A DNA stretch of 60,909 nucleotides. It comes from a virus. The notes under the pieces are model-generated. The model was not told the DNA's origin. It worked only from the letters and a program-made list of their open reading frames with translations, and did no database searches. The stretch lies in IMG/VR virus record IMGVR_UViG_3300031787_007938, positions 1 to 60,909 of that record. One strand, given 5' to 3'. Below are positions 17,572 to 35,652 of this stretch, one piece after another. A program made the position numbers and the translations under genes. How positions within the stretch are numbered: the stretch's first letter is position 1; the number at the start of each line of letters is the position of its first letter.

Positions 17572-18840
17572 TTATTCTATAGTTAATAAACTCATATCGA
17601 AAGGCGGATTTTCTACTTTGAATGGAGGAGTAATGTCTTTCGCTTCTCTTATCGATATTATGCAATTTCCTGATTGATAATCCCCAGGCTCTGTTTGCTC
17701 TATCAAGTGAGAGAGATTTAGTAGCGTTTCTTGAGTTAACATGTTATATTCATTGCTATCCAAATCCAATATTATTTTTGCGTTATAATTTTCAGGTTCT
17801 CCTACAAAATAAATTTGAGAATAGTCTATTTGATTATAATACTGACTAGATTCTTTCCAATTTTGCTCTGTAAAATTATATAGTTCATTTGCTGGTTGAT
17901 GTTGATCATCATGGGCTTGAATCAATTGATTCTTGTGATCCTCTAATTCTACAAAAACTCTTGTAAAAAACGGTTCTAATTGATAAGCAACATTTACCTG
18001 ATTCTTGGATCCTTTTATCACTAAATCACAATCATACTTTTTTATTAAATTTTCTCCGTGATTAAAATTTCCCCACTTTTTAAAAAATCTTCTCAACTCA
18101 ATTTGATCTGCATAGTTTTGTAATTTTACTCTATCTTGAGCTTCTTGATTAGATTGGTCAAACCAATTTTTTCCTCTTGAAGATACGCATGTGAAATGAT
18201 ATACATTTGCAGAGTATGTTTGCTTTAACTGTATTCCTAAATGTTTGCATCTCTGAACTAAATCAGAATCGCATCTAGATCTTCTAAATACTGTATCGTA
18301 TCCTCCCATTTTATTCCATGTTTCTTTATGAAAAGTATATGGCGCAAAGAAATAATCTATTTGCTTATTTGATTTAATTGTTTCAGCGTATTTAACAAAT
18401 TCATCAAATTTAAATTCATTCGGTGATAATCCAAAATTAGCAGTAAATGTTATATCTGAATTGCTATGCAATGGAGGTTCTATTCTAGTAGAACTCATTA
18501 TAGTATTGGTTTCTAAATTTTTTAGAATTTCAGTATCATAATGTTTAGATACTACCATATCACTCTGCAAATAACTAACGATATCGTATTTTGCTAAATC
18601 AACAATAAGATTGCAGTTTCTTTCTGGTCCAATTATAGGGGAAAGTTTATGAGTTATTATTTTAAGATCATAGAAATCTGATTTTATTGACCTTAGATAT
18701 TCTAATGTGCCATCGTTATCAGAATCTATAAAAACTAAAATCTCATGTTCTTTATTGTCTAGATTCTCTTTAAGAGATTGCAAAAGAATTTTAGTATATT
18801 CTAAAGTATTATTAGATGTATTTGTAGCAAACGTTATCAT
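17572..18840 (-). CDS. GT-A glycosyltransferase (family 2 type) with extra C-terminal domain
   Basis: 422 aa. Residues 1-240 form a GT2 fold: N-terminal strand MITFATNTSN, a VFIDSDNDGT segment, the donor/metal region SYLQSDMVVSKHYD and an acceptor-side GGYDTVFRRSRCDSDL. The last ~150 residues are unassigned and may be a second transferase-like or binding domain. It closes the cassette, directly after the FkbM gene (1 bp apart). Donor and acceptor unknown. Confidence 0.8.
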   Translation of the reverse strand: MITFATNTSNNTLEYTKILLQSLKENLDNKEHEILVFIDSDNDGTLEYLRSIKSDFYDLKIITHKLSPIIGPERNCNLIVDLAKYDIVSYLQSDMVVSKHYDTEILKNLETNTIMSSTRIEPPLHSNSDITFTANFGLSPNEFKFDEFVKYAETIKSNKQIDYFFAPYTFHKETWNKMGGYDTVFRRSRCDSDLVQRCKHLGIQLKQTYSANVYHFTCVSSRGKNWFDQSNQEAQDRVKLQNYADQIELRRFFKKWGNFNHGENLIKKYDCDLVIKGSKNQVNVAYQLEPFFTRVFVELEDHKNQLIQAHDDQHQPANELYNFTEQNWKESSQYYNQIDYSQIYFVGEPENYNAKIILDLDSNEYNMLTQETLLNLSHLIEQTEPGDYQSGNCIISIREAKDITPPFKVENPPFDMSLLTIE

Positions 18841-19485
18841 TTAATTATTTTTGTGCGCATATATTCTATCTACTCCGCATGTTTCTTTATATTCATATTC
18901 TAAGTCGTTAAGAAGATTTTCCATTTTTTCAGAACTACTATCATACCTATTTAACCACTTTTCACAAAATTCAATACATAAAATAGGTTTGAATTTTTCT
19001 ATTGTTTTTAAACCACCTATTAACGCATTTAATTCAAATCCTTCTACATCCAATTGAATAAGATCGCATTCAGGTAAATTTAAACTATCTATAGTTATAG
19101 ATGGTGTATATCCGGTTCCTGCAATATGAACTCCTCCTGTATCGTGTAATTTATCAGGTCTAATTAATTGTTGAATTTTTACTGGATTATTATCTGAACC
19201 TAAACAACATTGCATTTTTATTACATTATTTTGAGTAACATTTTGATTTAAGCAATAGAAGTTAATTGGATCTGGTTCAAATGTATAAACAGTTTTGAAA
19301 TGATCTACAAATTTACTTAACACAAATCCGCAATTTCCGCCGGCTTGTATCATAACATTTTTTGTTTTTACATATGGCAATATGTGCGTATGTAAATCTT
19401 GATATTCATTTTGCCCTCGCCAACTACTTTCATCATTTATTGGCCAAATCCACTTATTATCTTTTATTGTTGTCAATGATTCCAT
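18841..19485 (-). CDS. FkbM-family methyltransferase
   Basis: 214 aa with an SAM-binding start (VMIQAGGNCGFVLSKFV, then TFEPDP) and the FkbM signature IDSLNLPECDLIQLDVEGFE near residue 150. FkbM enzymes O-methylate sugars and antibiotics. In this context it most likely caps or decorates a glycan or nucleotide-sugar product. It is packed tightly between the glycosyltransferase and the epimerase. Confidence 0.9.
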   Translation of the reverse strand: MESLTTIKDNKWIWPINDESSWRGQNEYQDLHTHILPYVKTKNVMIQAGGNCGFVLSKFVDHFKTVYTFEPDPINFYCLNQNVTQNNVIKMQCCLGSDNNPVKIQQLIRPDKLHDTGGVHIAGTGYTPSITIDSLNLPECDLIQLDVEGFELNALIGGLKTIEKFKPILCIEFCEKWLNRYDSSSEKMENLLNDLEYEYKETCGVDRIYAHKNN

Positions 19486-19486
19486 T

Positions 19487-20401
19487 TTATATTTTTGTTT
19501 TATAGTAATTTACAGTATTTTTTATTCCATCTTCAATTTTAATTTTTGGCGTCCAATTTGTTTCTATTTTTATTTTTGAATTGGAACCGCATATGTATTT
19601 TGATGAAAATTTTCGATCTAAACTTTTATCAAAACTTATTTTCACATCATTAGAAATATTTTTTTGAATTTCTTTTATTACATTTTTTAAAACATATTCA
19701 TTAGATGAACATATATTATATGCCCCATTCTGTGTAGATGATTGAACTAACTCTGTTACCGCTTGACAAAAGTCATCTATATAGATATAATCTATAATAG
19801 TTTCGCAACTATTTAATATGATCTCTTCATTTGATAGTGCTTTATTGATTATAGTTGGAATTAATCTTGTAGATACATCTCCTGGACCATACACATAACA
19901 CGGTCTTATCCAATTATATTTAATATTATTTTGAATGCAATAAGCCTCAGTGATTTCCTTAACTTGTTTTTTTGATAAACCATAAAAATTTATCGGTTTC
20001 TCTTGTTGATCTTCATCTGCTTTAAATTCAAGGTTTCCATATTCTGCAAAACTACCTAGACCTATAAATTTAGGTTTATTATTTTGTTTATTAATTATTT
20101 CTAATAAACTTAAACTTAATGGAATATTTTTATAAAATTGATTAAAATTATTTACGTCTTGATAATTATTTCCACCATCCCAAGCAAAATTAATTACTAT
20201 GTCAGGAGAAAAGTCTACAATTATAGATTCATAAGGAACATAATTTTCTGTATCGCATTTTATAAATTTAATATCATTCAATAATTGGATGATATTATTT
20301 GAATTTTTTGAAAATGCTAGTATTTTATGATTTAGTTTTAATAAATGTTTTATAGTATTAGAACCTAAAAAACCATTTGCACCTGTAATTAAAATTTTCA
20401 T
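19487..20401 (-). CDS. NAD-dependent sugar epimerase/dehydratase (extended SDR)
   Basis: 304 aa: GANGFLGSNTIKHLL Rossmann motif at residues 7-21, FAWDGGNNYQ, an active-site YGLSK (Y-x-x-x-K) near residue 145 and WIRPCYVYGPG. These mark an extended SDR acting on nucleotide sugars. It follows the aldolase gene with a 4-bp overlap, so it is probably the reductase or epimerase acting late in the branched-sugar pathway proposed here. Exact reaction not deducible. Confidence 0.85.
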   Translation of the reverse strand: MKILITGANGFLGSNTIKHLLKLNHKILAFSKNSNNIIQLLNDIKFIKCDTENYVPYESIIVDFSPDIVINFAWDGGNNYQDVNNFNQFYKNIPLSLSLLEIINKQNNKPKFIGLGSFAEYGNLEFKADEDQQEKPINFYGLSKKQVKEITEAYCIQNNIKYNWIRPCYVYGPGDVSTRLIPTIINKALSNEEIILNSCETIIDYIYIDDFCQAVTELVQSSTQNGAYNICSSNEYVLKNVIKEIQKNISNDVKISFDKSLDRKFSSKYICGSNSKIKIETNWTPKIKIEDGIKNTVNYYKTKI

Positions 20402-21393
20402 TTTTTCAATTTTTGAGCTACTTCTAAAATTAAATCTTCTTGACCTGCTACTAATTTTCTATTTCCTAATTCGAAAATTAAAGATGAATATTCAATACCA
20501 TATAATTTTGAAGCATTAACAATAGGTTTTTCAAATCCAGAAAATAATTTTTTAAGACCAGTCAGTATATTAATTGGAGTGGTTATAGGCGCGGATGGAA
20601 CTAAGTATTCCATAACTTTATCCGCTTCTTTAATTGTTTCTTGAAAATTTATTCCTAAATCAAATCCGCTTTGTTCAAATACTGGTATTAAAACTTCTAA
20701 AGCTGCATTTCCTGCGCCTGCTCCAAAACCTCTAATACAACCATCAATTAAATCAGCGCCGCATTCTGCAGCGACTAATGAATTTGCGATAGCACAACCT
20801 AAATTATTATGAGCATGAAAACCTATTGGAACTTTTAAATTAGATTTTAATTTTGTAATTCTTTCTTTCACGTCTGATGGTAAATAAGTTCCTGTCGAAT
20901 CCATTATAATAATGCCTTGCGCTCCATAACTTTCCATGATCTTTGCCTGTTCGACTAATTCGTCTGCAGTAATTAACGCACTCATCATTAACACACCATA
21001 AACTATTATATTCTGAGTAGCTAAATACTCTATATGCGATTTTGATAATGTAGCTTCAGTGCAGTGAGTCGCAACTCTAAAAACGTCTACACCTAACTCT
21101 ATTGCTTTTTTTGCGTGATCTAAAGTTGCTAAACCTGGAATCATATGAATTCCTAATTTAGAAGATTTTAAATTTTTTCTTGCAACAGTCAATATTTCAT
21201 CATCAGTATTAATAGATTTACCTACTAATAGTGAAGATGCAGCTAATCCATTTCCATGTCCAACTTCTACAATCGGTATTCCTGCTCGATCTGCGAATTG
21301 ACAATATTTTGCAATGCTATCTAAATTTATAGTGTGTTTAACGCTATGATTTCCGTCTCTAAGACTTGAATCAGTTATAATAATTTTTTTCAT
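20398..21393 (-). CDS. 4-hydroxy-2-oxovalerate aldolase (DmpG/MhpE type)
   Basis: 331 aa, close to MhpE (337). It has SSLRDGNHSVKH at the N-terminus (the catalytic Arg-Asp of the pyruvate site), HMIPGLATL, IIMDSTGTYLP and the metal-binding GFHAHNNLG motif, then GFGAGAGNAALE. The family joins or splits acetaldehyde and pyruvate and partners an acylating acetaldehyde dehydrogenase, which is exactly the upstream gene (1-bp overlap). Finding it in a sugar cassette suggests it supplies an unusual 2-oxoacid rather than degrading aromatics. Confidence 0.9.
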   Translation of the reverse strand: MKKIIITDSSLRDGNHSVKHTINLDSIAKYCQFADRAGIPIVEVGHGNGLAASSLLVGKSINTDDEILTVARKNLKSSKLGIHMIPGLATLDHAKKAIELGVDVFRVATHCTEATLSKSHIEYLATQNIIVYGVLMMSALITADELVEQAKIMESYGAQGIIIMDSTGTYLPSDVKERITKLKSNLKVPIGFHAHNNLGCAIANSLVAAECGADLIDGCIRGFGAGAGNAALEVLIPVFEQSGFDLGINFQETIKEADKVMEYLVPSAPITTPINILTGLKKLFSGFEKPIVNASKLYGIEYSSLIFELGNRKLVAGQEDLILEVAQKLKK

Positions 21394-22196
21394 TATTTTT
21401 GTATTAATTTTTCAGTTATTTTAATTGCGGCACAATTTATTATATCTAGATTACCTGCGTATGAAGGAAGGTAGTCACCTATTCCTTTCACTCTAATACT
21501 CAATACAACTACGCCATTTTCATTCATTGTTGGAGGTAATACTAATTCATAATATGGGATATATTGTTTCAATTCTTCTATTTTATCAAGAACTTTCTCT
21601 GTTAGATTTTCAAAGTTAATATTTTTAGTTTTAATAAAAATAGTAGTTTGCATATCTACACAAGGTTCTGCTGGATTAAGATTGAGAATTACTTTACAAT
21701 TAGTACAACCCGTGAATTTAGTTATTGCTTTTTGAGTAGTGTATATATAATTATCTATGTTAATTCTCGTTGCCATTCCTGCGCTTTTAGACGCAATTTG
21801 AGATACTACTTCTACGTATTCTATTCCTTTACATTCTTTTGAAATTAAATGTAACATTGGCATAGAAGCTTGTCCACCACAAGTTATCATATTTATATTA
21901 TCATCAGTAATTATTATTTCTGAATTGACATCTGGCACACACATATCGCCTATTTTAGACGGAGTTAAATCAATAACTTTGATTCCTTGTTTTTTGAATA
22001 CTTTAGCATGATCCCGTGCATCAGCTGCGCTAGTACAATCATAAACAACATCACAACAATTTGGATTATCTATGAAATATTTTATACCTTGATCAGTGAT
22101 TGGGAAAATTACAGGTTTAATGAAATCTGTTTTGATTATTTTTAATAGAAGATCAGTGCCTATGTTTCCCGTTCCTAAAATTCCTGCTTTTATCAT
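21393..22196 (-). CDS. Acylating acetaldehyde dehydrogenase (DmpF/MhpF type)
   Basis: 267 aa, shorter than MhpF (316), but it keeps the NAD motif GTGNIGTDL, the catalytic Cys in ITCGGQASMP and the ASKSAG and LPSYAGNLDI segments. It interconverts acetyl-CoA and acetaldehyde and normally channels the aldehyde to the paired aldolase. Overlaps at both ends (1 bp with the aldolase, 4 bp with the TPP enzyme gene) point to a coupled three-enzyme unit. Confidence 0.9.
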   Translation of the reverse strand: MIKAGILGTGNIGTDLLLKIIKTDFIKPVIFPITDQGIKYFIDNPNCCDVVYDCTSAADARDHAKVFKKQGIKVIDLTPSKIGDMCVPDVNSEIIITDDNINMITCGGQASMPMLHLISKECKGIEYVEVVSQIASKSAGMATRINIDNYIYTTQKAITKFTGCTNCKVILNLNPAEPCVDMQTTIFIKTKNINFENLTEKVLDKIEELKQYIPYYELVLPPTMNENGVVVLSIRVKGIGDYLPSYAGNLDIINCAAIKITEKLIQK

Positions 22197-23974
22197 CTTT
22201 TTATTTGTTTAGATTTTTCACTTAATTGTATTATCATGCTATTTTCAATTTCCGTTAAAGGAAGTAATGGAGACATTTCTTCAATTGGAGGAGGAAATAT
22301 AGTTAAATCTTCCTTTAAAACTCCTTTTACTTTTGGAATAAAATCTTGTTCAGGATCCATGAATACTTCTAATACAGATGCATCTTTATCATTTAAAAAA
22401 TTTTCTATAGTAGAATCAAAATTTTGCCAGTCTTTTAATTCATAATAATTATATCCGAATGCGGGCATAAGTTTACTAAAATTTGGTAATCCAATTCCTG
22501 TTTTTTTATTCACACTTACGTAATGATTTTTAAACAACATTTTTTGAGTGTGTTTAATCATTAGGTATCCATCATTATTGAATATAACTACTTTTATAGG
22601 TAGCTCATTCTCTATTACTGTATGAAGTTCTTGAAGATTCATCATTATTCCACCATCACAATTTAAGCAAAGTACTGGTTTATTCGGACACGCAAATTGT
22701 GCGCCAATTGCACCAGCAATACCATATCCCATCTCTCCTAAACCTAATGACGTAAACATCACTTGATCTTTCTTTAATTTTATAGATTGATGTCCGCTTA
22801 ATAGCGCTGTACCCATATCTGTAACAATAATATGATCATCTTTTAAGTGATTAGATAGTCTATCTATGAATTTATATGAGTTTAAATATCCGTTATCTTT
22901 ATGAGCTTTTTCTACCCAAGGATAATCTTGTCTTAGTTTATTACAATAAGCTACCCAATCTTCTCTATAGCTGTCTAGATCGCATTCGTTTAAGCTTTCT
23001 ATAACATGTTTACAATTAGCTTGAATTCTCATATGCGTTGGATATTTTGCTAATTCAAGTTCATCAATATCTATTTGAATTATCTTTGCGTCTCTAGCAA
23101 ATTGACTAAAATCGTATCCAACTTGAGGTAAAGCTAATCTACTACCTAACACAATTACAAGATCAGCATTTTGCACTATAAAATTTGCGCATCGTTGTCC
23201 ATATAATCCAAATCTTCCATAGAAATTTTCATTATCTGATTCTATCAAGTCTATTCCTGACCATGTTAATAGGGTAGGTATTTTATTTTTATTAATAAAT
23301 TCATTAAATTTATTTTTAGCCCCAGATAATCTAATTCCGTTTCCTCCTAAAATTACTGGACGTTTTGATTCTTTGATAGCCTGTGATATCGATTCAGTAT
23401 TTAAAGACTTAAACTTAAAATCAGCTAAATGAAATGCCCAATCTCTTTTTTCTACCATTTTTGATTGTAAATTAAATGGAACATCTAATAAACACGGTCC
23501 AGGTCGTCCTGTAGAAGTAATAAAGTCTAAATCCTCTAGCACTTCTTGAATATCATCTTGATTAGTAAAACCTAAGGCTTTTTTTGTAACATCTTTTACC
23601 ATTTCTGAAATGTTTAAACCTTGAGTTCCATACATTCTTAAATGACTATCTTGAGTTACATAATTATAAGATTCTTGTCCACAAATAATTAAACCTGGGA
23701 TAGAATCAGCCCAATTGCTAACTATGCCAGTAACTGCATTTGTAACTCCTCCACCAGCTGTTACAATTGCTGCTGATAATTTACCTGATGCTCTATAGTG
23801 AGCACCCATAGCCATGACTGCAGCTTGTTCATGATGAGTATTAATTATCTTAGTATAGCCTAATTTATTAATTGAGTCAAATATATGAGAATTTGCAGAT
23901 CCGATAATTCCAAATACAGTCTCTATATTTTTTTCTTTTAAATAGTCTGCTATAATATCACTTACTTTTACCAT
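22193..23974 (-). CDS. TPP-dependent enzyme of the acetolactate synthase family (YerE-like?)
   Basis: 593 aa with the three-domain layout of the family: the catalytic Glu in THHEQAAVMAMG (about residue 49), a central Rossmann-like domain (KRPVILGGNGIRLSGA), and the TPP/Mg motif NCDGGIMMNLQELHT...FNNDGY near 430-465. In sugar clusters such enzymes (YerE in yersiniose synthesis) decarboxylate a 2-oxoacid and transfer the acyl unit to a 4-keto sugar, making a C-branched sugar. Here it is coupled to an aldolase/dehydrogenase pair able to make 4-hydroxy-2-oxovalerate as donor. Confidence 0.85.
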   Translation of the reverse strand: MVKVSDIIADYLKEKNIETVFGIIGSANSHIFDSINKLGYTKIINTHHEQAAVMAMGAHYRASGKLSAAIVTAGGGVTNAVTGIVSNWADSIPGLIICGQESYNYVTQDSHLRMYGTQGLNISEMVKDVTKKALGFTNQDDIQEVLEDLDFITSTGRPGPCLLDVPFNLQSKMVEKRDWAFHLADFKFKSLNTESISQAIKESKRPVILGGNGIRLSGAKNKFNEFINKNKIPTLLTWSGIDLIESDNENFYGRFGLYGQRCANFIVQNADLVIVLGSRLALPQVGYDFSQFARDAKIIQIDIDELELAKYPTHMRIQANCKHVIESLNECDLDSYREDWVAYCNKLRQDYPWVEKAHKDNGYLNSYKFIDRLSNHLKDDHIIVTDMGTALLSGHQSIKLKKDQVMFTSLGLGEMGYGIAGAIGAQFACPNKPVLCLNCDGGIMMNLQELHTVIENELPIKVVIFNNDGYLMIKHTQKMLFKNHYVSVNKKTGIGLPNFSKLMPAFGYNYYELKDWQNFDSTIENFLNDKDASVLEVFMDPEQDFIPKVKGVLKEDLTIFPPPIEEMSPLLPLTEIENSMIIQLSEKSKQIKR

Positions 23975-24936
23975 ATAAACTTTTTCTTATAGTAATCTAC
24001 AATATTTTTTATTTCTTTTGAAAAATTTATTTTTGGTGTCCAACCTAAATTTCTTAATTTTGAATCATCTAATGCGTATCTTACATCTTGACCAAGTCTA
24101 TCATAAGAAAAATCTATAAAATCATTACAATCTGAAAGATTTTCCCAATTTTTAATTTCTGTAAATTCTTCAATTATACGTTTAACAGTATCAATATTTT
24201 TTTGTTCAAATCCTCCAGCTATGTTATAGATTTCTCCTACTATTCCATGTTCTATTAAAGTAATAACAGCATCAGCTGTATCAGAAGCATGCAACCAATT
24301 TCTATATGGTTCTCCATTATTATGTAAAGGTATTTTACGACCTAAATTTAAATATTTAATAGCTTTTGGAATTAGTTTTTCTACATATTGACCTATACCG
24401 TAATTGTTAGTTGGTCTTACAATCATATATGGAAGTTTATGAGTTCTACCCCAAGCCATTACAAGCATATCTGCAGCTGCTTTAGTTGCTGAATATGGAT
24501 TACTTGGTTTTAATAAATGATCTTCTGTATGAGCTCCAGATTCAATATCTCCATATACTTCATCTGTACTAAAATGTATTAATACTGGCTTTGTAGAATT
24601 TTCTCCTCTATGATTTTTTATTAGTTCTAAAATATTGTGAACTCCATTTACATTTGAATGTACAAATTCTTCACTGCTCATTATAGAATTTCCAACATGA
24701 GTTTCAGCTGCAGTATTAATTATATAATCACAATCATATAAAAATGTCAAATCATTTATATCACAATGAACAAAAGAAAAGTTATCATATTTTTTAAACT
24801 CTTTTAAAAGATCTTTATTAGATGCGTATGTCATCATATCTACACCTTTTACATACCAGCCTTTATTTAAACACGCTCTTGTTACATAAGATCCGATAAA
24901 TCCAAGGCATCCAGTTACATATACTATTTTTTTCAT
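23968..24936 (-). CDS. Nucleotide-sugar 4,6-dehydratase-like SDR (RmlB/RfbG type)
   Basis: 322 aa. It has GCLGFIGSYVTRAC, HFSTDEVYGD, the Y-x-x-x-K site in PYSATKAAADML, RPTNNYGIGQY and PYRNWLHASD, all typical of dTDP- or CDP-glucose 4,6-dehydratases. The TDE triad is the dehydratase catalytic set. It probably makes the 4-keto-6-deoxy intermediate used by the RfbH-like 3-dehydrase. No nucleotidylyltransferase is encoded in the window, so the NDP-glucose would come from the host. Confidence 0.85.
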   Translation of the reverse strand: MKKIVYVTGCLGFIGSYVTRACLNKGWYVKGVDMMTYASNKDLLKEFKKYDNFSFVHCDINDLTFLYDCDYIINTAAETHVGNSIMSSEEFVHSNVNGVHNILELIKNHRGENSTKPVLIHFSTDEVYGDIESGAHTEDHLLKPSNPYSATKAAADMLVMAWGRTHKLPYMIVRPTNNYGIGQYVEKLIPKAIKYLNLGRKIPLHNNGEPYRNWLHASDTADAVITLIEHGIVGEIYNIAGGFEQKNIDTVKRIIEEFTEIKNWENLSDCNDFIDFSYDRLGQDVRYALDDSKLRNLGWTPKINFSKEIKNIVDYYKKKFIW

Positions 24937-24961
24937 TAAGTTAATTTTATTGGTTTTTAAA

Positions 24962-25609
24962 TTAGCACGTTGTTACGAATGATCTATCTTGAAGACAAAT
25001 ATCTGGATAGACACTATATATTTTTTTACCTAGACTTCTTAAATGATCATTTAAATGATCTCCTACTACATTTGTTATTGGAGCTGATTGAGCTATGATG
25101 TCATGATAGACAGTATGATTTATTGCACATGCGTGACATCCTGGAGTATGTAATAAATTTGGCGTATAATCTACATCTCCTGTATAAGGATATGTTTGAA
25201 ACATGCTGCCTAATACTATAATATCCCAATCTTCAGGTATTTTGTTTTTTATATCTAGGAAATTTTGATCAGTGAAACTATGATAGTTATCGAAATAAAC
25301 ATCATCGTTCATAAAAATAAAACTTTTAATATTATTGTTAATTGCTCTATGAATTATATAATTTAATGCGTATTGAGCTGCATAATACCTAGACGTTGTT
25401 ATCTCGCCTAATTGATTGTGATTCATATATCCTCCTTTCGTATAAAAAGGGAATAAAAAATTATCTCCATCAAATGCTTCAAAAAATTGATAATTTAAAT
25501 TAATTAAAGAACATTTTTTTTCCATAGATAATTTCCTATCTAAACTCTTTTTCAAATTAAGAATATATGTTTTTCCAAAAGCATCATATAGAGCAGCTCC
25601 TAAAGTCAT
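24962..25609 (-). CDS. GT25-like glycosyltransferase
   Basis: 215 aa: TYILNLKKSLDRKLSMEKKC at the start (the I-N-L-x-x-S-x-x-R motif of LPS family 25 transferases), AFDGDN, then FIFMNDDVYFDN (an acidic metal motif) and a late VGDHLNDHLRSLG. The pattern matches GT25, often galactosyl- or glucosyltransferases of LPS cores. It is shorter than most members but looks complete. Confidence 0.75.
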   Translation of the reverse strand: MTLGAALYDAFGKTYILNLKKSLDRKLSMEKKCSLINLNYQFFEAFDGDNFLFPFYTKGGYMNHNQLGEITTSRYYAAQYALNYIIHRAINNNIKSFIFMNDDVYFDNYHSFTDQNFLDIKNKIPEDWDIIVLGSMFQTYPYTGDVDYTPNLLHTPGCHACAINHTVYHDIIAQSAPITNVVGDHLNDHLRSLGKKIYSVYPDICLQDRSFVTTC

Positions 25610-25611
25610 AT

Positions 25612-27261
25612 TTATTTTATTATATTTTTTAAAAATTTATCGAAATATATATCATTATCCCACCTCCATTTTAAAGCAGTTTCATAGTTATTTTTTATAC
25701 TATCTAATTTTGATTGGTAGATTTCAGGAGTTAAATTATCTAATATTTCTAATAATTCTTCTTTATCGTTAAATGTGATTATCCCATTCTTATCAAAAAA
25801 ATCATCTATGTTAGGACAACCTTTATATATCGGTATCGTTCCAGTTAAAAAACAATCTAGTATTTTTTCCGTAAAATAATTTTTTTGATTTCCATTTTCT
25901 ATTGCAATGGAAAAATAATAATCTTTTAATCCTAAAATTTTTTGATTTATTTCATTGTATCCTACTCCATATAAATCAAACTTCTGATTATTTTTTAAAA
26001 GATAATTTACACACTCTGTTCTAAATCTATGCCAATCAGTAAATGTTTTATTAGAGGTTATGAATGATACTAATTTATTTTTTTCATATATAGAAAATAA
26101 ACTTTCATTTACATATACAGGATAGCCTTGTGAATAATTTTGTTTAGTCAATAGAACTTCACCGCCCCCATTTCTAAAAATAGAATTTGGTAATTTTAAT
26201 AACTCTTCATCATAAGTCAATATTGCATCAAATTTTTCATAATGATGAATTAATGCTTGATGAACTAGTTTTTGATTATGTAAGTGTGCTGGTTCGTGCA
26301 CGTCTGCAACTATCTTTCCTCTATTAATAATAATATCTCCATTTATATATCTTATAATATCTGTATCGCATATTAAAGATAAATCAAATTCTCCGTCTTG
26401 CAAATCTTGTACATACGAGAATTTTTTTGGCATGCTATTATTCTCTCTACCTCCTCCAATAGCGTTTATTTGGGGTAACTTTTCTCCTGAAAGTCCTTCC
26501 TTATAGTGTTTTTTATTTCTTATTTCTAATTCGTATTTTTGATTATCTGATGATTCCCTTTCATCTGTTCTTTGTCTACAAGATTTACTATTGTTCCATA
26601 CGTAAGTAGGAAAATCTACAACTCCAATCTTTTCTTTTGGACACATTTCTAAGCACGGATATGCTAGAGATAAATCGCAAGCATGATGAAAATACATGTT
26701 ATCTATACTTGATATAAAATCTTTTTGATCAATCGCTTTTACTAAAAATCCTTTTAATGTCAGCATATGACTCGCTCTCCAAACGTCTCTTCTATATAAT
26801 TTATATTCGTGAATAAAATCTGGATATGGAGTGTTTTGTGGATTGGCTTTTATTGCATTATCAGACCCATCAAAAACATAAAATTGTCCGTATGTCATCC
26901 AAGAATTTTTTTCGTTGTAGAAATTGTTTAAATTCTCTAAAACGCTATCATTCATAAGCCAATCGTCTCCGCATGCAAATACTGCAATCTCATCATCTTC
27001 TAAAGAATCAAAAAATCTTACATAGTTATAGAAATGTTCTTTTCCTTTTCTTTTTTCATTTCTAATAATCGTAAATTTATTGTTGGTTCCTACAATAGAG
27101 TGTACTAATTCGTTAGTATTATCAGTAGAACAATCGTCAACATATAATACTTCGTAATTATCGTACGTTTGATTTATTATACTGGCTAAATTATATTCGA
27201 CCCAATCTTCATTATTATATGAAGGTATTATTATTTTAAATTTATTTTTCTTCATTATCAC
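25612..27261 (-). CDS. Two-domain glycosyltransferase: GT2 fused to GT10 fucosyltransferase-like
   Basis: 549 aa. Residues 1-230 are GT2 (KIIIPSYNNEDWVEYNL, LYVDDCSTDNTNE, FACGDDWLM). Residues about 290-545 look like GT10 alpha-1,3-fucosyltransferases, with YYFSIAIENGNQKNYFTEK, then a T-G-T-I-P-I-Y-K-G segment: the GT10 donor site E-N-x(5)-Y-x-T-E-K. Such a fusion would let one protein add two successive sugars. The cassette also makes GDP-fucose, the GT10 donor. The start may be the ATG two codons later. Confidence 0.8.
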   Translation of the reverse strand: MIMKKNKFKIIIPSYNNEDWVEYNLASIINQTYDNYEVLYVDDCSTDNTNELVHSIVGTNNKFTIIRNEKRKGKEHFYNYVRFFDSLEDDEIAVFACGDDWLMNDSVLENLNNFYNEKNSWMTYGQFYVFDGSDNAIKANPQNTPYPDFIHEYKLYRRDVWRASHMLTLKGFLVKAIDQKDFISSIDNMYFHHACDLSLAYPCLEMCPKEKIGVVDFPTYVWNNSKSCRQRTDERESSDNQKYELEIRNKKHYKEGLSGEKLPQINAIGGGRENNSMPKKFSYVQDLQDGEFDLSLICDTDIIRYINGDIIINRGKIVADVHEPAHLHNQKLVHQALIHHYEKFDAILTYDEELLKLPNSIFRNGGGEVLLTKQNYSQGYPVYVNESLFSIYEKNKLVSFITSNKTFTDWHRFRTECVNYLLKNNQKFDLYGVGYNEINQKILGLKDYYFSIAIENGNQKNYFTEKILDCFLTGTIPIYKGCPNIDDFFDKNGIITFNDKEELLEILDNLTPEIYQSKLDSIKNNYETALKWRWDNDIYFDKFLKNIIK

Positions 27262-27986
27262 AAATATTTTTTCAATTCGTTATTTAATAAGTTTACTCTA
27301 TCACTATTTGAACAACCTGTTAAATGCGCTATAAAACAATTTTCATTCCAAGGAGATGTTATTTTAAATGAACTATTTGGGCCAACTCTATTAGGATCAT
27401 TTTTCCAAATCTCAGTATTTTTTATAAATTCTGGTACTGCATTTAAATATTTATGTTCTAGTATCTTAATATACGATTTCAAATGAGTAGCTTTATATAG
27501 ATAGTTAAAACACGCTTGATCAGCTCCTGAATCATTCAAATAAGTTTGAGCTGAATAAACAAACTTATCAAATATCTCAGCGCTATTATGAGTTAATTGT
27601 ACTATAAAATTTCCTCCACTAAATCCTTCATGTCCAGAATCTCCATTTGAAGATACCGGCCAATCATAAGAAAAATATAATGAATGATCATTTGTTATAA
27701 AAGACTCTATGGGATAATTATAATTTGTCACTATAGAATCAGCATCTAACCACATAATAATATTATAATGTGCTAACATTCTAAACATGTATATGGTTCT
27801 AGAAAATGATAAACCTATATTATCATTATTGATATTATATTCCGGATATTTTTTAAATGAATTTAAACACATAAAATCATAACCATATTTTCTAGCGTAT
27901 CTCAATTTAGAAGGCACAGTTAGATCTAATACTTCATGTAAATTATTATCGCCTCCTGTTAATACTAACACTTTTTTATTTTCCAT
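27258..27986 (-). CDS. GT34-like glycosyltransferase
   Basis: 242 aa with YNIIMWLDADSIVTN (the D-x-D motif after a hydrophobic strand), SGGNFIVQL and a late CFIAHLTGCS. These are features of GT34 galactosyl/mannosyltransferases (GMA12/MNN10 type). No signal anchor is present, so it acts in the cytoplasm. It overlaps the next gene by 4 bp. Confidence 0.7.
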   Translation of the reverse strand: MENKKVLVLTGGDNNLHEVLDLTVPSKLRYARKYGYDFMCLNSFKKYPEYNINNDNIGLSFSRTIYMFRMLAHYNIIMWLDADSIVTNYNYPIESFITNDHSLYFSYDWPVSSNGDSGHEGFSGGNFIVQLTHNSAEIFDKFVYSAQTYLNDSGADQACFNYLYKATHLKSYIKILEHKYLNAVPEFIKNTEIWKNDPNRVGPNSSFKITSPWNENCFIAHLTGCSNSDRVNLLNNELKKYL

Positions 27987-27990
27987 TAAA

Positions 27991-28986
27991 TCAATTTAAT
28001 ACTTTATTCATATATTTTAACCAATTATCTTTATGGTAGTGTGATTTGTAACTTTCTCTACTTATTCTACTACAACGTTCATAAAATTCTTTATCTTCTT
28101 TTAGTCTCTTTGCTAAATTTCTAGCTGAGTGAATATCTTCTACATCTACAGAAAGTAGAGGATGACACGCAGACTGTGTATCTACGTTTACGTTTCCTAT
28201 GCATGGTATTCCAAAATAAGCACAATTTAAACTGAATGTTCCTGCAGCCACCGTTGGCATTAAATGCACTGCATATTTAAATTTTGATAGCTCTTGCATC
28301 CATTGGTTCCACATCATTCTTGGAAAATGATTTATATTTTCTAGTTGATCTTCATATTCTCTTTTTGAGTGAGAATCTTGAGCCCAAATAGGCGCTTGAA
28401 ATTCTTGAGCGACGGTATAACTTTCAAATCCTCCATACCACCTAGAGAAATTGCCGCCAATGATTACCCGGTCTGTTTTATTAGGCTTTATATCTCTTAT
28501 AAGAGTTTCTATCATAAGAGTCTGCATGATGTGAATGGGTTTATCTGGAAACATTCCCATATAATATAGTCTATCTTGTTGGTTATGCGCAAATATTGAA
28601 TCGCATTCACTGATAAGATTGTAGAAATTTATCTGATCTACTATTTCGTAATCATTAAAAAGCCAGTGAGGACCTTCTTGTACAAAATACACTTTTGAAT
28701 TATGTTCTTTTAACAATCTATGAAAATTAGATTCTAATAATTGACTTATAGGATTAATTTTATTTATTAACTTTCCTCCGACTGCATTTAAATAAACTTC
28801 GCCTTTTGGAATTATTAAAAAAACATGATCATAATTTTTTACTTCGTGAAATAGAGAAATTGGAAAGTGATCAGCGTCAAGAGCGTTCATCCACGCAAAT
28901 TCTGTTCTCATATTTGGATGATTACATGATATTTTTCCTGTAAAGCCCATTTCAGTTAGAAATGCTATTTTTCTATTAACATTCAT
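27991..28986 (-). CDS. Putative GT-B glycosyltransferase (331 aa)
   Basis: No sharp motif, but the second half (VIIGGNFSRWYGGFESY, TVAAGTFSLNCAYFGIPCIGNVNVD) looks like the donor half of a GT-B enzyme with the G-T-F-S-L-N-x-A-x-x-G-I-P turn. The first half includes YFVQEGPHWLF. Its location among transferase genes supports this. Donor unknown. Confidence 0.55.
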   Translation of the reverse strand: MNVNRKIAFLTEMGFTGKISCNHPNMRTEFAWMNALDADHFPISLFHEVKNYDHVFLIIPKGEVYLNAVGGKLINKINPISQLLESNFHRLLKEHNSKVYFVQEGPHWLFNDYEIVDQINFYNLISECDSIFAHNQQDRLYYMGMFPDKPIHIMQTLMIETLIRDIKPNKTDRVIIGGNFSRWYGGFESYTVAQEFQAPIWAQDSHSKREYEDQLENINHFPRMMWNQWMQELSKFKYAVHLMPTVAAGTFSLNCAYFGIPCIGNVNVDTQSACHPLLSVDVEDIHSARNLAKRLKEDKEFYERCSRISRESYKSHYHKDNWLKYMNKVLN

Positions 28987-29806
28987 TATCTATATTTTTC
29001 CATGAATCTATATAATATTTACCATTTATGAATGATACATCACTGTAGGATTTAACATAGTTAGTAGGACATATTACTTTTTTATTTTTGTTGTTATTCT
29101 TATATGCCGCGCACATACTAAAAGTACTATTAGCCACTATATTATGATGACATAAACTCATTAATATTAAATCTACGTAATCTTCTCTCTGAGGCATGAA
29201 TGTGACCATTTCTCCTTCTATAAGATTTTCTTTACACCATTCAATATCATTTGAAAACACTAAAAAATGATATTTTTCTATATCTTGAATAAAATTTTGA
29301 AGCGCTTCTTCGTAGTATCTGTTATCTAATTTACAAAAGTGATGATGTAATAAATAATCTCCACGACGAACGTGAATAGATACCAATTCCTTATTATATT
29401 TTTTTAACGTTTCAAAAATATCTAATGCTGTTTTATAATGCTTTTCATTCCATTTTATAGAATCTATAAGATAACAATATTTTGGATACCAATAGTCGCA
29501 ATAAAAAAATAGATCTTCAACGCTATAATTTTTATTAGAATCTAAATTAAACATTTTTGGATCAATTAATAATTTTCTATCAATTGTTATTGGAATAAAA
29601 TCATTGAAAAATTCATCAGATCTTAAATCTAATTCAACATCTAATAGTTTAGAAAATTTATATCCCCAACCTTTATCTGATGATGATTTAGGAAATACTA
29701 TTTTTAAATTATTTGCACTTGCTACTGCGCATAATGCCCAATACTGCATAACTTGAGATCCTAAATCTGCTGATGTTGTTAGATTTTTAAATGTTATGTA
29801 TCCCAT
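28976..29806 (-). CDS. GT11 alpha-1,2-fucosyltransferase-like protein
   Basis: 276 aa. It contains VSIHVRRGDYL near residue 145, the invariant H-x-R-R-x-D GDP-fucose motif of GT11/GT37 fucosyltransferases, then FSNDIEWCKENL and NSTFSMCAAY, also typical of GT11. It starts within the end of the RfbH-like gene and lies two genes from GDP-fucose synthase. It would add L-fucose in alpha-1,2 linkage. Confidence 0.85.
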   Translation of the reverse strand: MGYITFKNLTTSADLGSQVMQYWALCAVASANNLKIVFPKSSSDKGWGYKFSKLLDVELDLRSDEFFNDFIPITIDRKLLIDPKMFNLDSNKNYSVEDLFFYCDYWYPKYCYLIDSIKWNEKHYKTALDIFETLKKYNKELVSIHVRRGDYLLHHHFCKLDNRYYEEALQNFIQDIEKYHFLVFSNDIEWCKENLIEGEMVTFMPQREDYVDLILMSLCHHNIVANSTFSMCAAYKNNNKNKKVICPTNYVKSYSDVSFINGKYYIDSWKNIDNEC

Positions 29807-31148
29807 TATTATTTTCTTTTATGAAATTATGTAAACACAATTCTATATAATCTAATTGTTGATCTGTAATTCCTGGATATACTCCGAGAAAAAATGTATC
29901 TAACGTCGTTTTTGTCGCAATTGGAAATTGAGTTCTAGGATTTTCATATTCTTTAGCTAAATCTTCATATGCTGGATGGAATAAAGCGTTTCCTGTAAAA
30001 TAAGATCTTGTTTGAACTTTACATGATTCCATATAATCTATTAAATCAGCTTTTGTAAATGGAGTATTATCTTTAAGAGTGACTAAATATCCAAACCAAG
30101 ATGGATCTGCTTTTTCATGAACTGTAGGCAAATAAAAATAATCGGGGTATTTACTAAAGATCTCATACAATCTTTTAAAATTGTGTTTTCTTCTTGTATG
30201 CATCTCATCTAATTTGCCTAATTGCGCTAATCCAATTGCAGCTTGCATTTCTGTAGGTTTTAAATTATATCCTATCTCTTCAAAAACGTATCTGTGATCA
30301 AAAGAAATATCTGATTGCTGTTTGAACCAAGAATCAAATCTACAACCACAAGCTGTACCGCACATTACATTTCCAGGTTTTGCGGTATTGCAATAACATG
30401 CTCTGCCCCAATCTCTCAAAGATGCTAATGCCATTCTTTTTTTAGCTGAATTAACTGCAACAAAACCACCTTCACCCATTGTCATATGATGAGCTGGGAA
30501 AAATGAACACGTAGAAATATCGCCGAAAGATCCTAAAGGTTTTCCATCCCAAGTAGAGCCTAACGCATCACACGTATATTCTAAATAAATTAAATTATAT
30601 TTTTTTACTATGTCCATAACTCTATCCATATCAGGAGGATTTCCTAATACGTGGGCAAATATAAGGCCTTTAATTTCTTTATTAATGTCCTCTTGTAAAA
30701 CTTTTTCTACTTGATCTAAGTCTAGATTCAGATCTGGTAGTGTAACGTCTACGAAAACTGGTTTATAGCCATTTTGAATTAGTGGGTTTATTGTTGTTGG
30801 AAAACATACGACAGGAGTAATAAATTTAGAACCTTCTGGAACTTTACCCCATCTTTTTGTTTTCAAAAGAGATACCATTAATAAATTTGCAGAGCTTCCA
30901 GAATTAACAACTATACCATCTTTTTTACCTAGAAGAGGCGCGAATTTTAATTCGAACTCTCTACCTTTTTCACCTAATATAAACCATTCAGATAGGAGAG
31001 AATCTACGCCGTATACAAATTCTTTCTCATTAAAATAAGGACCTGAATATTGAATCCAATCCACACCAGGTTTCCATGTTTTATTTTTTTTCTTTTCTTT
31101 TATATACTCAGATATAGAATCTAAAATAGCTTGTTTTTTACTATCCAT
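29787..31148 (-). CDS. RfbH/DdhC-like 3-dehydrase (PLP, Fe-S)
   Basis: 453 aa of the DegT/DnrJ/EryC1 aminotransferase fold. The segment FFPAHHMTMGEGG has His where aminotransferases have the PLP-binding Lys, the hallmark of the 3-deoxygenating enzymes E1 (RfbH/DdhC) and ColD. A Cys-rich stretch (RACYCNTAK, then VMCGTACGC) fits the [2Fe-2S] ligands of the E1 branch, which ColD lacks. It removes the 3-OH of an NDP-4-keto-6-deoxyhexose. E1 needs a reductase partner (DdhD); none is visible in this window. Confidence 0.85.
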   Translation of the reverse strand: MDSKKQAILDSISEYIKEKKKNKTWKPGVDWIQYSGPYFNEKEFVYGVDSLLSEWFILGEKGREFELKFAPLLGKKDGIVVNSGSSANLLMVSLLKTKRWGKVPEGSKFITPVVCFPTTINPLIQNGYKPVFVDVTLPDLNLDLDQVEKVLQEDINKEIKGLIFAHVLGNPPDMDRVMDIVKKYNLIYLEYTCDALGSTWDGKPLGSFGDISTCSFFPAHHMTMGEGGFVAVNSAKKRMALASLRDWGRACYCNTAKPGNVMCGTACGCRFDSWFKQQSDISFDHRYVFEEIGYNLKPTEMQAAIGLAQLGKLDEMHTRRKHNFKRLYEIFSKYPDYFYLPTVHEKADPSWFGYLVTLKDNTPFTKADLIDYMESCKVQTRSYFTGNALFHPAYEDLAKEYENPRTQFPIATKTTLDTFFLGVYPGITDQQLDYIELCLHNFIKENNNGIHNI

Positions 31149-31164
31149 GTTTTAACTTTATTTT

Positions 31165-32070
31165 TTATTTTCTTATTGTTTCGTAATTTAATTTAAACCA
31201 ATCTATTGTATTTTTTAAACCTATTTCTAAAGTAGTAAAATTATATTGACCGATTATATTTGTCAATCTTTCGTTAGACGATGGTTTTCTATGTTGTCCA
31301 TTAGGTTTATCTAATAACCACTTAACCTCTCCTTCAAATTCCATGTGCTTAATAATTATGTCGACTACTTCTTTTATAGAATACTCTTGTGGATTGGATA
31401 TTATTATTGGATCAGTTCCTTCATAAGTTTCTACTAATTTCAACACTATATCTGCCATATCGTCTGCGAAAACAAATTCTCTAAGAGCAGATCCATTTCC
31501 CCAAATTTCAAAAGGCGAATTATTTTGTTTTGCTAACCAACACTTGTGAATCAAAGTCGGGATAACGTGACCATTATGTAAATTGAAATTGTCCTTTATT
31601 CCGTAAACATTGCATGGAATAACTGAAAAATAATTAGTTTCATATTGTTTATTATAAGCTTTAATTTGAATGTCAGCCATTCTTTTCGCATACGCATAAG
31701 ATGCATTGCTTGGGTGAGGTTCTCCTTGATGAATTTTATCTTCAGTAAGAGGATATTCTATTTTATCAGGAAATACGCATGTCGATAAAAAGCAAACTAA
31801 TTTTTTTACTCTATGTTCGAATGAAGATTGAATAATGTTTGTATTCATCATTATATTATCGTAATAAAAATTAGCAGGATATTGCATATTTGCTCCGACT
31901 CCTCCTACTTTGGCGGCTGTGTGAATTACCACGTCAGGATTATTTTCTTCAAACATTTTATTTGTTTCTACTGTTGATCTCAGATCATAATCTTTAGATC
32001 CTAACTTTTTTCCTTTTTTAAAGGCGGATCCTATTAATCCTGTTCCTCCAGTTATTACTATTTTATTCAT
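31165..32070 (-). CDS. fcl: GDP-L-fucose synthase
   Basis: 301 aa: TGGTGLIGSAFKKG, HTAAKVGGVGANM, FLSTCVFPD and the Y-x-x-x-K site in YAYAKRMAD, then CNVYG and NGSALREFVFADD. This is the bifunctional epimerase/reductase that turns GDP-4-keto-6-deoxymannose into GDP-L-fucose. It overlaps the GDP-mannose dehydratase gene by 8 bp, forming the standard two-gene fucose pathway. Confidence 0.95.
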   Translation of the reverse strand: MNKIVITGGTGLIGSAFKKGKKLGSKDYDLRSTVETNKMFEENNPDVVIHTAAKVGGVGANMQYPANFYYDNIMMNTNIIQSSFEHRVKKLVCFLSTCVFPDKIEYPLTEDKIHQGEPHPSNASYAYAKRMADIQIKAYNKQYETNYFSVIPCNVYGIKDNFNLHNGHVIPTLIHKCWLAKQNNSPFEIWGNGSALREFVFADDMADIVLKLVETYEGTDPIIISNPQEYSIKEVVDIIIKHMEFEGEVKWLLDKPNGQHRKPSSNERLTNIIGQYNFTTLEIGLKNTIDWFKLNYETIRK

Positions 32071-33037
32071 TTGTATAATGTTTTATCCAATAATTAATCA
32101 TTTCTAATAGCATTGATTTAAAAGTATATGTCGGTTCCCAACCAGTCATTTGTTTTAATTTTGACGCATCGCCTTTTAAATTATTTAATTCTTCTGGTCT
32201 TAAAAATTTTTCATCTTGTTTTACGTAATCTTTCCAATTTAAATCTAATGCCATAAACACGTATTCGCAAAGTTCTTGCACCGAATGAGATATTCCAGTA
32301 GCGCATACGAAGTCATCTGGTTTATCTAGTTGTAAAATCTGATGCATTGCTTTAACATAATCTTTTGCATGACCCCAATCTCTAGTTGCGCTTAGATTAC
32401 CCAATTTTAATTCTTTAGATAAACCTAATTTTATTTTTACTGCTTCTTTACAAACTTTATTTGTGACAAAATTAGTGCCTCTTCTTGGAGATTCATGATT
32501 GAATAATACTCCATTAGATACGAACATATTATATGAGTGTCTATAATTTCTGCTTATGTTATAAGCAAACACTTTAGCGCAACCATAAGGAGATACTGGA
32601 TTCATTGTGGTAGTTTCTCTCTGATAACCGTCAGCGTCAATTGAATTACCAAACATTTCAGAAGAAGATGCTTGATATATTTTTATAGATGCATCCACCT
32701 CTTTTACTACTTCTAATAAATTAAGTACACTTACCCCTGTCGCATTTACAGTATATATAGGTTGATCAAAAGATATTCTTACATGCGATTGAGCTGCTAA
32801 ATTATATATCTCATGAGGTTTAACTTGATTTATCACTCTGTATAAAGACGATATATCAGTCATATCTGCATAATGCAAATTTAATTTATTGAATATTTCG
32901 TCTAGTCGCGCTGTTTGATTTTCTGCTACAGAATTTCTTTTTAATATTCCGTGAACTTCGTATCCTAATTCAAGTAGATATTCTGCTAAATATGATCCAT
33001 CCTGTCCATTTATTCCAGTTATTATAGCTTTTTTCAT
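32063..33037 (-). CDS. gmd: GDP-mannose 4,6-dehydratase
   Basis: 324 aa: ITGINGQDGSYLAEYLLELGY, LAAQSHV, ASSSEMFG (the S-S-E catalytic set), Y-x-x-x-K in SPYGCAKVFAY and NHESPRRG, all diagnostic for GMD. It makes GDP-4-keto-6-deoxy-D-mannose from GDP-mannose, feeding the fucose synthase. Full length compared with family members (about 340-370 aa), slightly short at the C-terminus. Confidence 0.95.
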   Translation of the reverse strand: MKKAIITGINGQDGSYLAEYLLELGYEVHGILKRNSVAENQTARLDEIFNKLNLHYADMTDISSLYRVINQVKPHEIYNLAAQSHVRISFDQPIYTVNATGVSVLNLLEVVKEVDASIKIYQASSSEMFGNSIDADGYQRETTTMNPVSPYGCAKVFAYNISRNYRHSYNMFVSNGVLFNHESPRRGTNFVTNKVCKEAVKIKLGLSKELKLGNLSATRDWGHAKDYVKAMHQILQLDKPDDFVCATGISHSVQELCEYVFMALDLNWKDYVKQDEKFLRPEELNNLKGDASKLKQMTGWEPTYTFKSMLLEMINYWIKHYTNE

Positions 33038-33654
33038 ATCATTGAATATAATGTATTTTGCATTTCTTGGCGTTGTATATGTTTATGGTGTAATAAACAA
33101 TATTCTTCTTGTATAGGAAGAACTGCTTGAGAAGTATGTCCGTATATAACCTCATGAACTTTTCCTACCCATTGTATTTTTGGAGAGTTTTGAATTATTC
33201 TAGTTTGTATATCAGGAAAGTTCACCCATCCTTTTTCGTTTACATTCCATCCCCATTTAATTATGTGCTCTTGAGTCAATCCTTCTACAGTATTGATTCT
33301 AGGCAAACAGAAAAGTTGCACTTCAGGATTGTCTCTTAAAATTTGTGGAAGGTGTTGTAAAAATTCTTCGTGTAATAGTTCATCTGCATCTATTTGAAAT
33401 ATCCAAGCTCCAAGACAATTTGCTTTTAGATTATTTTTAAATGCAGCAAAGTTTCCCTTTAACGCAAATTCTATTATTTTTATATTATTTTTATGCTTTT
33501 CTAAAATTTGATAAACTTCACCAGTGGTGTTTCCCAAATCGCATTGAACCACTATTTCATCTTGAGTACGTTTATATTCAATCAATAAAGAAAGTAATTT
33601 ATCTAATTCTTTATGTTCGTTGCATACCGGAATAGCGTAACTTATTGATGGCAT
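33034..33654 (-). CDS. GT2 glycosyltransferase (206 aa)
   Basis: A compact GT2 fold: ISYAIPVCNEHKELDKLLSL at the start, VVQCDLGNTTGE, AWIFQIDADELLHEEF (the D-x-D motif) and a C-terminal VGKVHEVIYG. The sequence resembles LPS heptosyl/glucosyltransferases of the WaaE type. Overlaps the dehydratase gene by 4 bp. Confidence 0.8.
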   Translation of the reverse strand: MPSISYAIPVCNEHKELDKLLSLLIEYKRTQDEIVVQCDLGNTTGEVYQILEKHKNNIKIIEFALKGNFAAFKNNLKANCLGAWIFQIDADELLHEEFLQHLPQILRDNPEVQLFCLPRINTVEGLTQEHIIKWGWNVNEKGWVNFPDIQTRIIQNSPKIQWVGKVHEVIYGHTSQAVLPIQEEYCLLHHKHIQRQEMQNTLYSMI

Positions 33655-33657
33655 ATT

Positions 33658-34107
33658 TTATTTTTTTATATCAAAAAATCCAATGTAATCACACGCTTCT
33701 ATAAAATCTGTTCCAAAATTTTCTAAACTTTTAGAGTCTGATTTATAAAGCTGCCCTTTAAATTTAGGATTTTGTTTTTCTTCTTCTGTTAATTCTACAG
33801 TTTTGATAGCTGACCATTGCCAACTATCTTTAGATTTACCATTTGCAAAAACCGTTCCTTTGTCCAAAATATTGATAGCCTGAGGATACCATACTCTATT
33901 TTCATAATCTAGAGTTTTTAGATCTTTATAAAGTTCTGGTAACGTTGATTCAAATTCTTCAAAATTGAATTCGGATTCTTGCATTAGATCGTTAGTAGTA
34001 AATCCGCATCCAAAACACGCGTATGAATTATGAAATTCATTTATAGGAGTTTGATAACAGCAAGCTTTTTCTTTACAATTAGGACAATCTATTATTTTAT
34101 CAATCAT
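33658..34107 (-). CDS. Zinc-ribbon protein of unknown function (149 aa)
   Basis: The N-terminus contains IIDCPNCKEKACC and then YACFGCGFTTN: two C-x2-C pairs forming a zinc ribbon. The rest is acidic and mostly helical (LMQESEFNFEEFE). It lies inside the cassette between GT2 and the two large GT4 genes. A structural or regulatory role is possible. Confidence 0.65.
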   Translation of the reverse strand: MIDKIIDCPNCKEKACCYQTPINEFHNSYACFGCGFTTNDLMQESEFNFEEFESTLPELYKDLKTLDYENRVWYPQAINILDKGTVFANGKSKDSWQWSAIKTVELTEEEKQNPKFKGQLYKSDSKSLENFGTDFIEACDYIGFFDIKK

Positions 34108-34342
34108 TTAAAAGAGTTTTTGTTTCTGTATTATTATTTTTATTATCGGATATAGGACTAGTAGAACTCCAATTGTTATCTAAAGTATATCGGCTATATC
34201 TCGTTTTCGATTCTATTGATTCTTCAGTTTTAACTTTTTCCAAAAATTCGCAAATAGTATCCCACTGTTTCGGAGTTATATTAAAACTATTAGCAGCAGA
34301 TACGAATCCTTTAAACCACGTTACAAATTCTTTTTCTGTCAT
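34100..34342 (-). CDS. Hypothetical protein (80 aa)
   Basis: A helical N-terminal half (MTEKEFVTWFKGFVSAANSF...) resembling small phage proteins that pair with W-F-K-G-F and P-x-x-W motifs, and a low-complexity tail rich in Ser, Asn and Thr. Function unknown. Confidence 0.55.
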   Translation of the reverse strand: MTEKEFVTWFKGFVSAANSFNITPKQWDTICEFLEKVKTEESIESKTRYSRYTLDNNWSSTSPISDNKNNNTETKTLLND

Positions 34343-34343
34343 A

Positions 34344-35651: not shown

Positions 35652-35652
35652 A

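Follow-up and report, generated by a model that had tools for sequence, protein, structure and literature searches.

The virus record IMGVR_UViG_3300031787_007938 (60,909 bases, analysed over its whole length and called the window below) carries a sugar cassette in which three overlapping minus-strand genes encode a thiamine pyrophosphate (TPP) enzyme, a DmpF-like acylating acetaldehyde dehydrogenase and a DmpG-like 4-hydroxy-2-oxovalerate aldolase. Judged from sequence, this trio is quite probably the module that makes the donor and adds the branch of a long-branched deoxy sugar, with an erwiniose-like branch at C4 of a 3,6-dideoxy-4-keto sugar. Phages appear to be able to make unusual ten-carbon branched sugars. 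Such a pathway has been studied in O-antigens and mycobacterial lipooligosaccharides and would also be carried by many phages; no report of a long-branched-sugar pathway in phages was found in the literature searched. An earlier note on this DNA had described the three overlapping genes, and its coordinates, gene order, catalytic Glu and the motifs TCGGQA, RDG and HAHNN were all correct. The overlaps are 4 nucleotides (nt) at TPP/DmpF, 1 nt at DmpF/DmpG and 4 nt between DmpG and the following short-chain dehydrogenase/reductase (SDR) gene.

The sequence analysis establishes the identity of the genes, their linkage in an operon, the clade and pocket residues of the TPP enzyme, the cofactor motif of DmpF, the signature of the 3-dehydratase and the replacement of the module; the reactions that follow, the nucleoside diphosphate (NDP) carrier, NADPH use, the reduction step and the glycan target are inferred. 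DmpF would convert acetyl-CoA to acetaldehyde, probably with NADPH, and DmpG would join acetaldehyde with pyruvate to form 4-hydroxy-2-oxovalerate. The TPP enzyme would decarboxylate this 2-oxoacid and transfer the resulting 3-hydroxybutanoyl group to the keto carbon C4 of an NDP-3,6-dideoxy-4-keto hexose, which could be supplied by a 4,6-dehydratase (the RmlB-like protein next to the TPP gene, or Gmd) and an RfbH-type 3-dehydratase. The branch may next be reduced by an SDR to yield an erwiniose-like sugar of ten carbons, which the glycosyltransferases of the cassette would use.

Erwiniose contains ten carbons (PMC8657720), that is, a hexose plus the four carbons left once a C5 2-oxoacid is decarboxylated. 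According to PMC12247030, ErwE prefers hydroxylated 2-oxoacids including 4-hydroxy-2-oxopentanoate and makes erwiniose on CDP-4-keto-3,6-dideoxyglucose. The ErwE/erwiniose pathway of Pectobacterium atrosepticum, likened here by its described chemistry, has a similar donor, a 4-keto-3,6-dideoxy acceptor and a ten-carbon product. The long C4 branch on a 3,6-dideoxy-4-keto sugar, as proposed in the earlier note, is supported by gene identities and context, but the closest sugar is erwiniose (six plus four carbons) and not caryophyllose.

The TPP enzyme and its relation to JanthE

The TPP enzyme, which has its catalytic Glu in HHEQAA, is on sequence criteria a YerE-like lyase of the JanthE subgroup and not an acetolactate synthase, and it is predicted to decarboxylate a 2-oxoacid and to attach the acyl group at C4 of a 4-keto sugar. 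The top PDB chain was 8rph (555 bits, 43% identity over the whole length), and the next chain reached 242 bits. In the literature 8rph is JanthE, a YerE-like thiamine diphosphate (ThDP) lyase from Janthinobacterium sp. HH01 (also 8rpi and 8rpj). The CDG motif, an unusual mark of JanthE, is present in the phage enzyme, and the catalytic and most pocket residues are shared: Y268, P293, Y297, H494, F564 and K567 of JanthE correspond to Y258, P283, Y287, H475, F545 and K548 in the window. JanthE is bacterial, whereas the phage enzymes form a separate group, and in the window enzyme V121 of the JanthE pocket is replaced by Thr and S498 by Met. With an AlphaFold2 model of the window enzyme (pLDDT 87), the seven top Foldseek matches were all JanthE chains (TM 0.93).

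A rapid maximum-likelihood tree (120 sequences, SH-aLRT support) placed nearly all viral enzymes in one group (support 100), with one Flavobacteriaceae metagenome-assembled genome inside it. The viral group adjoins the cellular group that holds JanthE, while acetolactate synthases and the type of PDB 5ahk, which we take to be YerE of Pseudomonas protegens, are separate. The fork uniting the viral and the JanthE-bearing groups has a support of only 81, and two divergent viral sequences (L036, L037) fall outside both. The window enzyme was also below the NCBIfam equivalog cut-offs for acetolactate synthases among the best 25 of 53 models (top score 347.9 bits against a cut-off of 738). Identity as an acetolactate synthase was ruled out by cut-offs, tree and pocket residues. 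The phylogeny suggested by the earlier note thus agreed with its view of a sugar-branching enzyme unlike the ordinary acetolactate type, as did the sequence match, the pocket residues and the model. Two Pseudomonas loci (L116, at 8203 and 10001; L122, at 8202 and 10001) carry a 5ahk-type, YerE-like TPP gene and a JanthE-type one side by side, and their 5ahk-type proteins lack the JanthE pocket residues.

In PMC12188165, JanthE takes 4-hydroxy-2-oxovalerate as donor with benzaldehyde as partner, and its physiological substrates are reported as unidentified. With the pathway proposed here, specific natural substrates can be suggested for JanthE, which has already attracted study as a biocatalyst.

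DmpF, DmpG and the exchange of the proposed donor module

The catalytic Cys motif of the window DmpF is matched by CGGQ in all copies compared. The protein passes the subfamily model NF006157 and misses TIGR03215 (276.6 against 282.25 bits), which an intact copy (L002) passes with 316.4 bits. Compared with contig IMGVR 3300042691_034669 (L002/L038), the window DmpF is 54 bp shorter: 18 codons at the cofactor loop, the GRR motif included, are cleanly deleted with the reading frame kept, a loss that the earlier note had missed; the overlap of about 20.3 kb otherwise contains 1 mismatch. Because this near-identical overlapping contig keeps the loop, the deletion is likely an assembly error or a minor variant.

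In DmpFs of catabolic aromatic pathways, represented by four references from plasmids and five with solved structures, the cofactor loop reads G-[IV]-D. The 88 TPP-linked DmpFs in which the loop is present, 44 of them viral and 44 cellular, all showed a basic residue and no Asp, the Ile/Val position being Arg (one Lys) and the Asp position Arg or Asn (one Ser). Loss of Asp with gain of Arg at this position of the Rossmann fold is the usual mark of NADP preference. The DmpFs of sugar clusters are predicted to use NADPH, which fits the direction of acetyl-CoA reduction. As a context-blind check, 395 Bacteroidota and 369 Gammaproteobacteria genomes were drawn at random and gave five GRN-type DmpFs, all in loci with a JanthE-type TPP gene (L197 through the overlapping L116); the other 27 DmpFs showed no TPP gene within short flanks and were mostly beside meta-cleavage genes. 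By motif the window DmpF is not of the catabolic type, its loop being absent and the TPP-linked copies having GR[RN] and not G[IV]D. Cofactor motif and neighbours ruled out a catabolic DmpFG identity.

DmpG/DmpF of aromatic meta-cleavage (BphI/BphJ, MhpE/MhpF) are the same two enzymes with the same catalytic motifs and the communication domain of DmpG. The phage pair differs from them in its predicted direction, which is opposite, in GR[RN] for G[IV]D, and in its neighbours, which are sugar genes in place of meta-cleavage genes. The window DmpG passes TIGR03217 (333.8 against 286 bits) and has the communication domain PF07836, and RDGxH was found in 46/46 viral copies. In many related loci an SDR gene follows DmpG, and the SDR of the window is a candidate for reducing either the branch ketone or the sugar. 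On a Paraburkholderia symbiosis plasmid (L181, 7974-13187), the order DmpF-DmpG-dehydrogenase-TPP was seen outside a sugar cluster, with GRD as the DmpF motif.

DmpFG is absent from three viral loci (L081, L082, L089). A gene-by-gene reading of L081 and L082 showed an HpcH/HpaI-family aldolase directly after the TPP gene, and a separate cellular clade (L137-L139, L142-L144) likewise has an HpaI-type aldolase in the place of DmpFG. The two HpaI-linked TPP clades stand apart in the tree (SH-aLRT 100 each), and both have GDG for CDG and Leu for Phe at JanthE position 564, possibly a parallel change with the donor. More distant cellular relatives of the TPP enzyme stand next to a protein of HMGL-like or HpcH type, frequently joined by a HAD phosphatase, which suggests other branch donors. 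The recurrence beside the TPP enzyme of an aldolase capable of forming a 2-oxoacid is as the donor-supply model predicts. In clusters not yet characterised, the cofactor motif of DmpF and the type of aldolase module linked to the TPP gene could be easy sequence signs of the branch chemistry to expect. As side observations, L081 (11779-14383) and L082 (11764-14375) also contain a second HpcH-type protein and an LdpA-like iron-sulfur protein, and loci of Lachnospiraceae and others (L164, L170, L175, L178 and L161, L165, L169, L174) have HMGL-like or HpcH-type proteins, HAD phosphatases and, in some, a protein like 3-dehydroquinate (DHQ) synthase.

Occurrence of the trio and the probable acceptor-sugar genes

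Context-blind searches of viral sequences, one for each protein of the trio, gave 16, 20 and 63 loci. DmpF and DmpG were close to 43 distinct viral TPP sequences, and every viral locus found through DmpF or DmpG had an adjoining TPP gene, except one cut at the contig end. The arrangement is not due to chance, because dozens of viral contigs contain the block and the identical 4-nt overlap was found at 39/42 viral TPP/DmpF junctions. The block sits among sugar genes in viral loci with enough flank, and a terminase was present on five trio contigs, all longer than 130 kb. The layout is divergent in viral L062, L063, L068 and L083, where DmpG is on the strand opposite TPP, and in the marine bacteria L133 (Pelagibacter) and L147 (Prochlorococcus), where both DmpG and DmpF are on that strand. 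Searches of cultured phages and plasmids gave no close relative, and many of the "phage" matches there look bacterial.

Among bacteria, 77 context-blind loci were obtained with the TPP alignment as query and one genome per species. DmpF and DmpG were present in 41 of them, and 36 of those 41 also had RfbH; Rugamonas rivuli has a JanthE homologue (98.7% identical) in the order RfbH-TPP-DmpF-DmpG. The earlier note had asked for a genome-context search for the trio beside RfbH, and the trio is indeed found there and is not confined to catabolic operons. Its location in a phage sugar cassette was likewise confirmed, but a phage-specific trio was ruled out, as the same genes are common in bacterial polysaccharide clusters.

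The window RfbH exceeds the cut-off of NF011936 (441.8 against 423 bits). In DegT-family proteins of TPP loci, His takes the place of the pyridoxal phosphate (PLP) lysine in 49/49 viral and 52/56 cellular sequences. This replacement is a mark of 3-dehydratases (RfbH/E1, ColD) and not of aminotransferases. An RmlB-like dehydratase adjoins the TPP gene in most viral loci, with copies 61-81% identical, and this enzyme is probably where the phage begins to make the acceptor. In Flavobacteriaceae L101, RfbF (glucose-1-phosphate cytidylyltransferase), RfbG (CDP-glucose 4,6-dehydratase), RfbH, TPP, DmpF and DmpG lie in a row, and RfbF, RfbG and RfbH all exceed their NCBIfam cut-offs. This row points to CDP-4-keto-3,6-dideoxyglucose as the acceptor in L101. 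Since the phage dehydratase beside the TPP gene is RmlB-like, the nucleotide carrier in the phage may differ from the CDP of L101.

Alternative explanations and the sugar cassette

It is unlikely that the TPP enzyme uses plain pyruvate and makes a two-carbon branch as in yersiniose, with DmpFG serving another purpose. Such a branch is possible since JanthE takes pyruvate too (PMC12188165), and YerE of the yersiniose A pathway in Yersinia pseudotuberculosis, which performs the same reaction type on the same 3,6-dideoxy-4-keto acceptor class, uses pyruvate as donor for its two-carbon branch (PMC12247030). However, 5ahk is far more distant from the phage enzyme (242 bits), which is of the JanthE type; in the Pseudomonas loci both types stand side by side. 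DmpFG moreover adjoins this TPP clade in the viral and bacterial numbers given above, and where it is missing a different aldolase is often in its place. DmpG might also use another aldehyde, for example propanal made from propionyl-CoA by DmpF, which would lead to a 4-hydroxy-2-oxohexanoate-like donor and a five-carbon branch. DmpFG homologues are somewhat promiscuous for aldehydes, but acetyl-CoA is the most abundant acyl-CoA, and both the phage DmpG and the intact phage DmpF score above the cut-offs of the equivalog models for acetyl/4-hydroxy-2-oxovalerate enzymes, so that we regard this as quite improbable.

A role in catabolism or amino-acid metabolism, as an acetolactate synthase with the end of a meta-cleavage pathway, would be in line with the generic annotation of each gene and with DmpFG being best known from aromatic catabolism. 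It is very hard to reconcile with a TPP enzyme of another clade that scores below the acetolactate-synthase cut-offs, with TPP-linked DmpFs without G[IV]D, and with a cassette in which no meta-cleavage genes were seen and viral blocks which lie among sugar genes. Decay of the module in this virus, the DmpF deletion leaving it with no acetaldehyde source of its own or the pathway idle, is rather doubtful though clearly less far-fetched, and it is compatible with an erwiniose-like branch. The deletion is seen directly in the window, but the rest of the block is intact and the near-identical contig keeps the loop.

Several points weigh against the proposed long branch made from 4-hydroxy-2-oxovalerate. 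Viral L053, L058 and L060 keep the TPP enzyme with no recognised aldolase module, which also speaks for the pyruvate alternative, and without this partner they may use pyruvate. The DmpF of this record misses its cofactor loop. In the window about 6 kb separate RfbH from the trio, and not all contigs with the trio gave a complete RfbH, some of these contigs being fragments and others having a shorter His-type DegT enzyme. RfbF and RfbG are missing from the phage cassette, which leaves the assignment of an NDP carrier tentative.

The flippase family PF01943 was found in 0/29 trio-bearing or related viral contigs, while 13/14 control genomes were positive, and the cassettes of these 29 contigs are rich in glycosyltransferases. 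The glycan may therefore be built on a cytoplasmic acceptor (phage protein or DNA), which is a guess, and a host flippase could serve instead. Tentatively, and with considerable doubt, phages might make the erwiniose-like ten-carbon sugar and use it to decorate, within the cytoplasm, virion proteins or DNA of their own, and phages and bacteria might diversify the branch by swapping donor modules (DmpFG, HpaI-type, and HMGL-type or HpcH-type with phosphatase in distant cellular relatives) beside one branching enzyme.

Table 1. Features of the sugar cassette in the window.
Feature	Coordinates	Strand	Basis
Glycosyltransferase family 2	17572-18840	-	PF00535
FkbM methyltransferase	18841-19485	-	PF05050
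SDR, NAD-dependent epimerase/dehydratase family	19487-20401	-	PF01370
DmpG-like 4-hydroxy-2-oxovalerate aldolase with communication domain	20398-21393	-	TIGR03217, PF00682, PF07836; 331 aa
DmpF-like acylating acetaldehyde dehydrogenase	21393-22196	-	PF09290, NF006157; 267 aa
Predicted JanthE/YerE-type ThDP lyase (TPP enzyme)	22193-23974	-	JanthE match; 593 aa
RmlB-like NDP-glucose 4,6-dehydratase	23968-24936	-	TIGR01181, 306.7 bits (below cut-off 365); TDEVYG and YxxxK motifs
Glycosyltransferase block: GT25, GT2+GT10, GT34, one protein without family, GT11	24962-29806	-	Pfam
RfbH-type PLP 3-dehydratase, His for PLP lysine	29787-31148	-	NF011936; SFFPAHH
GDP-fucose synthase-like SDR (Fcl-like)	31165-32070	-	NF047922, 244 bits (below cut-off 500)
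GDP-mannose 4,6-dehydratase-like (Gmd)	32063-33037	-	TIGR01472, 397 bits (slightly below cut-off 415)
More glycosyltransferase-like genes (within 33034-37095)	33034-33654, 34344-35651, 35653-37095	-	PF00535, PF00534, phrog_2170

The protein at 27991-28986 in the glycosyltransferase block had no match in the Pfam search, and the same search gave no match for two adjacent proteins of about 300 aa (47444-48328 and 48306-49256) in a nucleotide-metabolism region. The record also has phage genes for a DnaB-like helicase, DNA polymerase, ribonucleotide reductase, thymidylate synthase, dUTPase, endolysin and GroEL. The cassette spans about 17.5-37 kb, and its G+C content is 0.26-0.32 (18001-36000) compared with 0.33-0.40 in most of the record.

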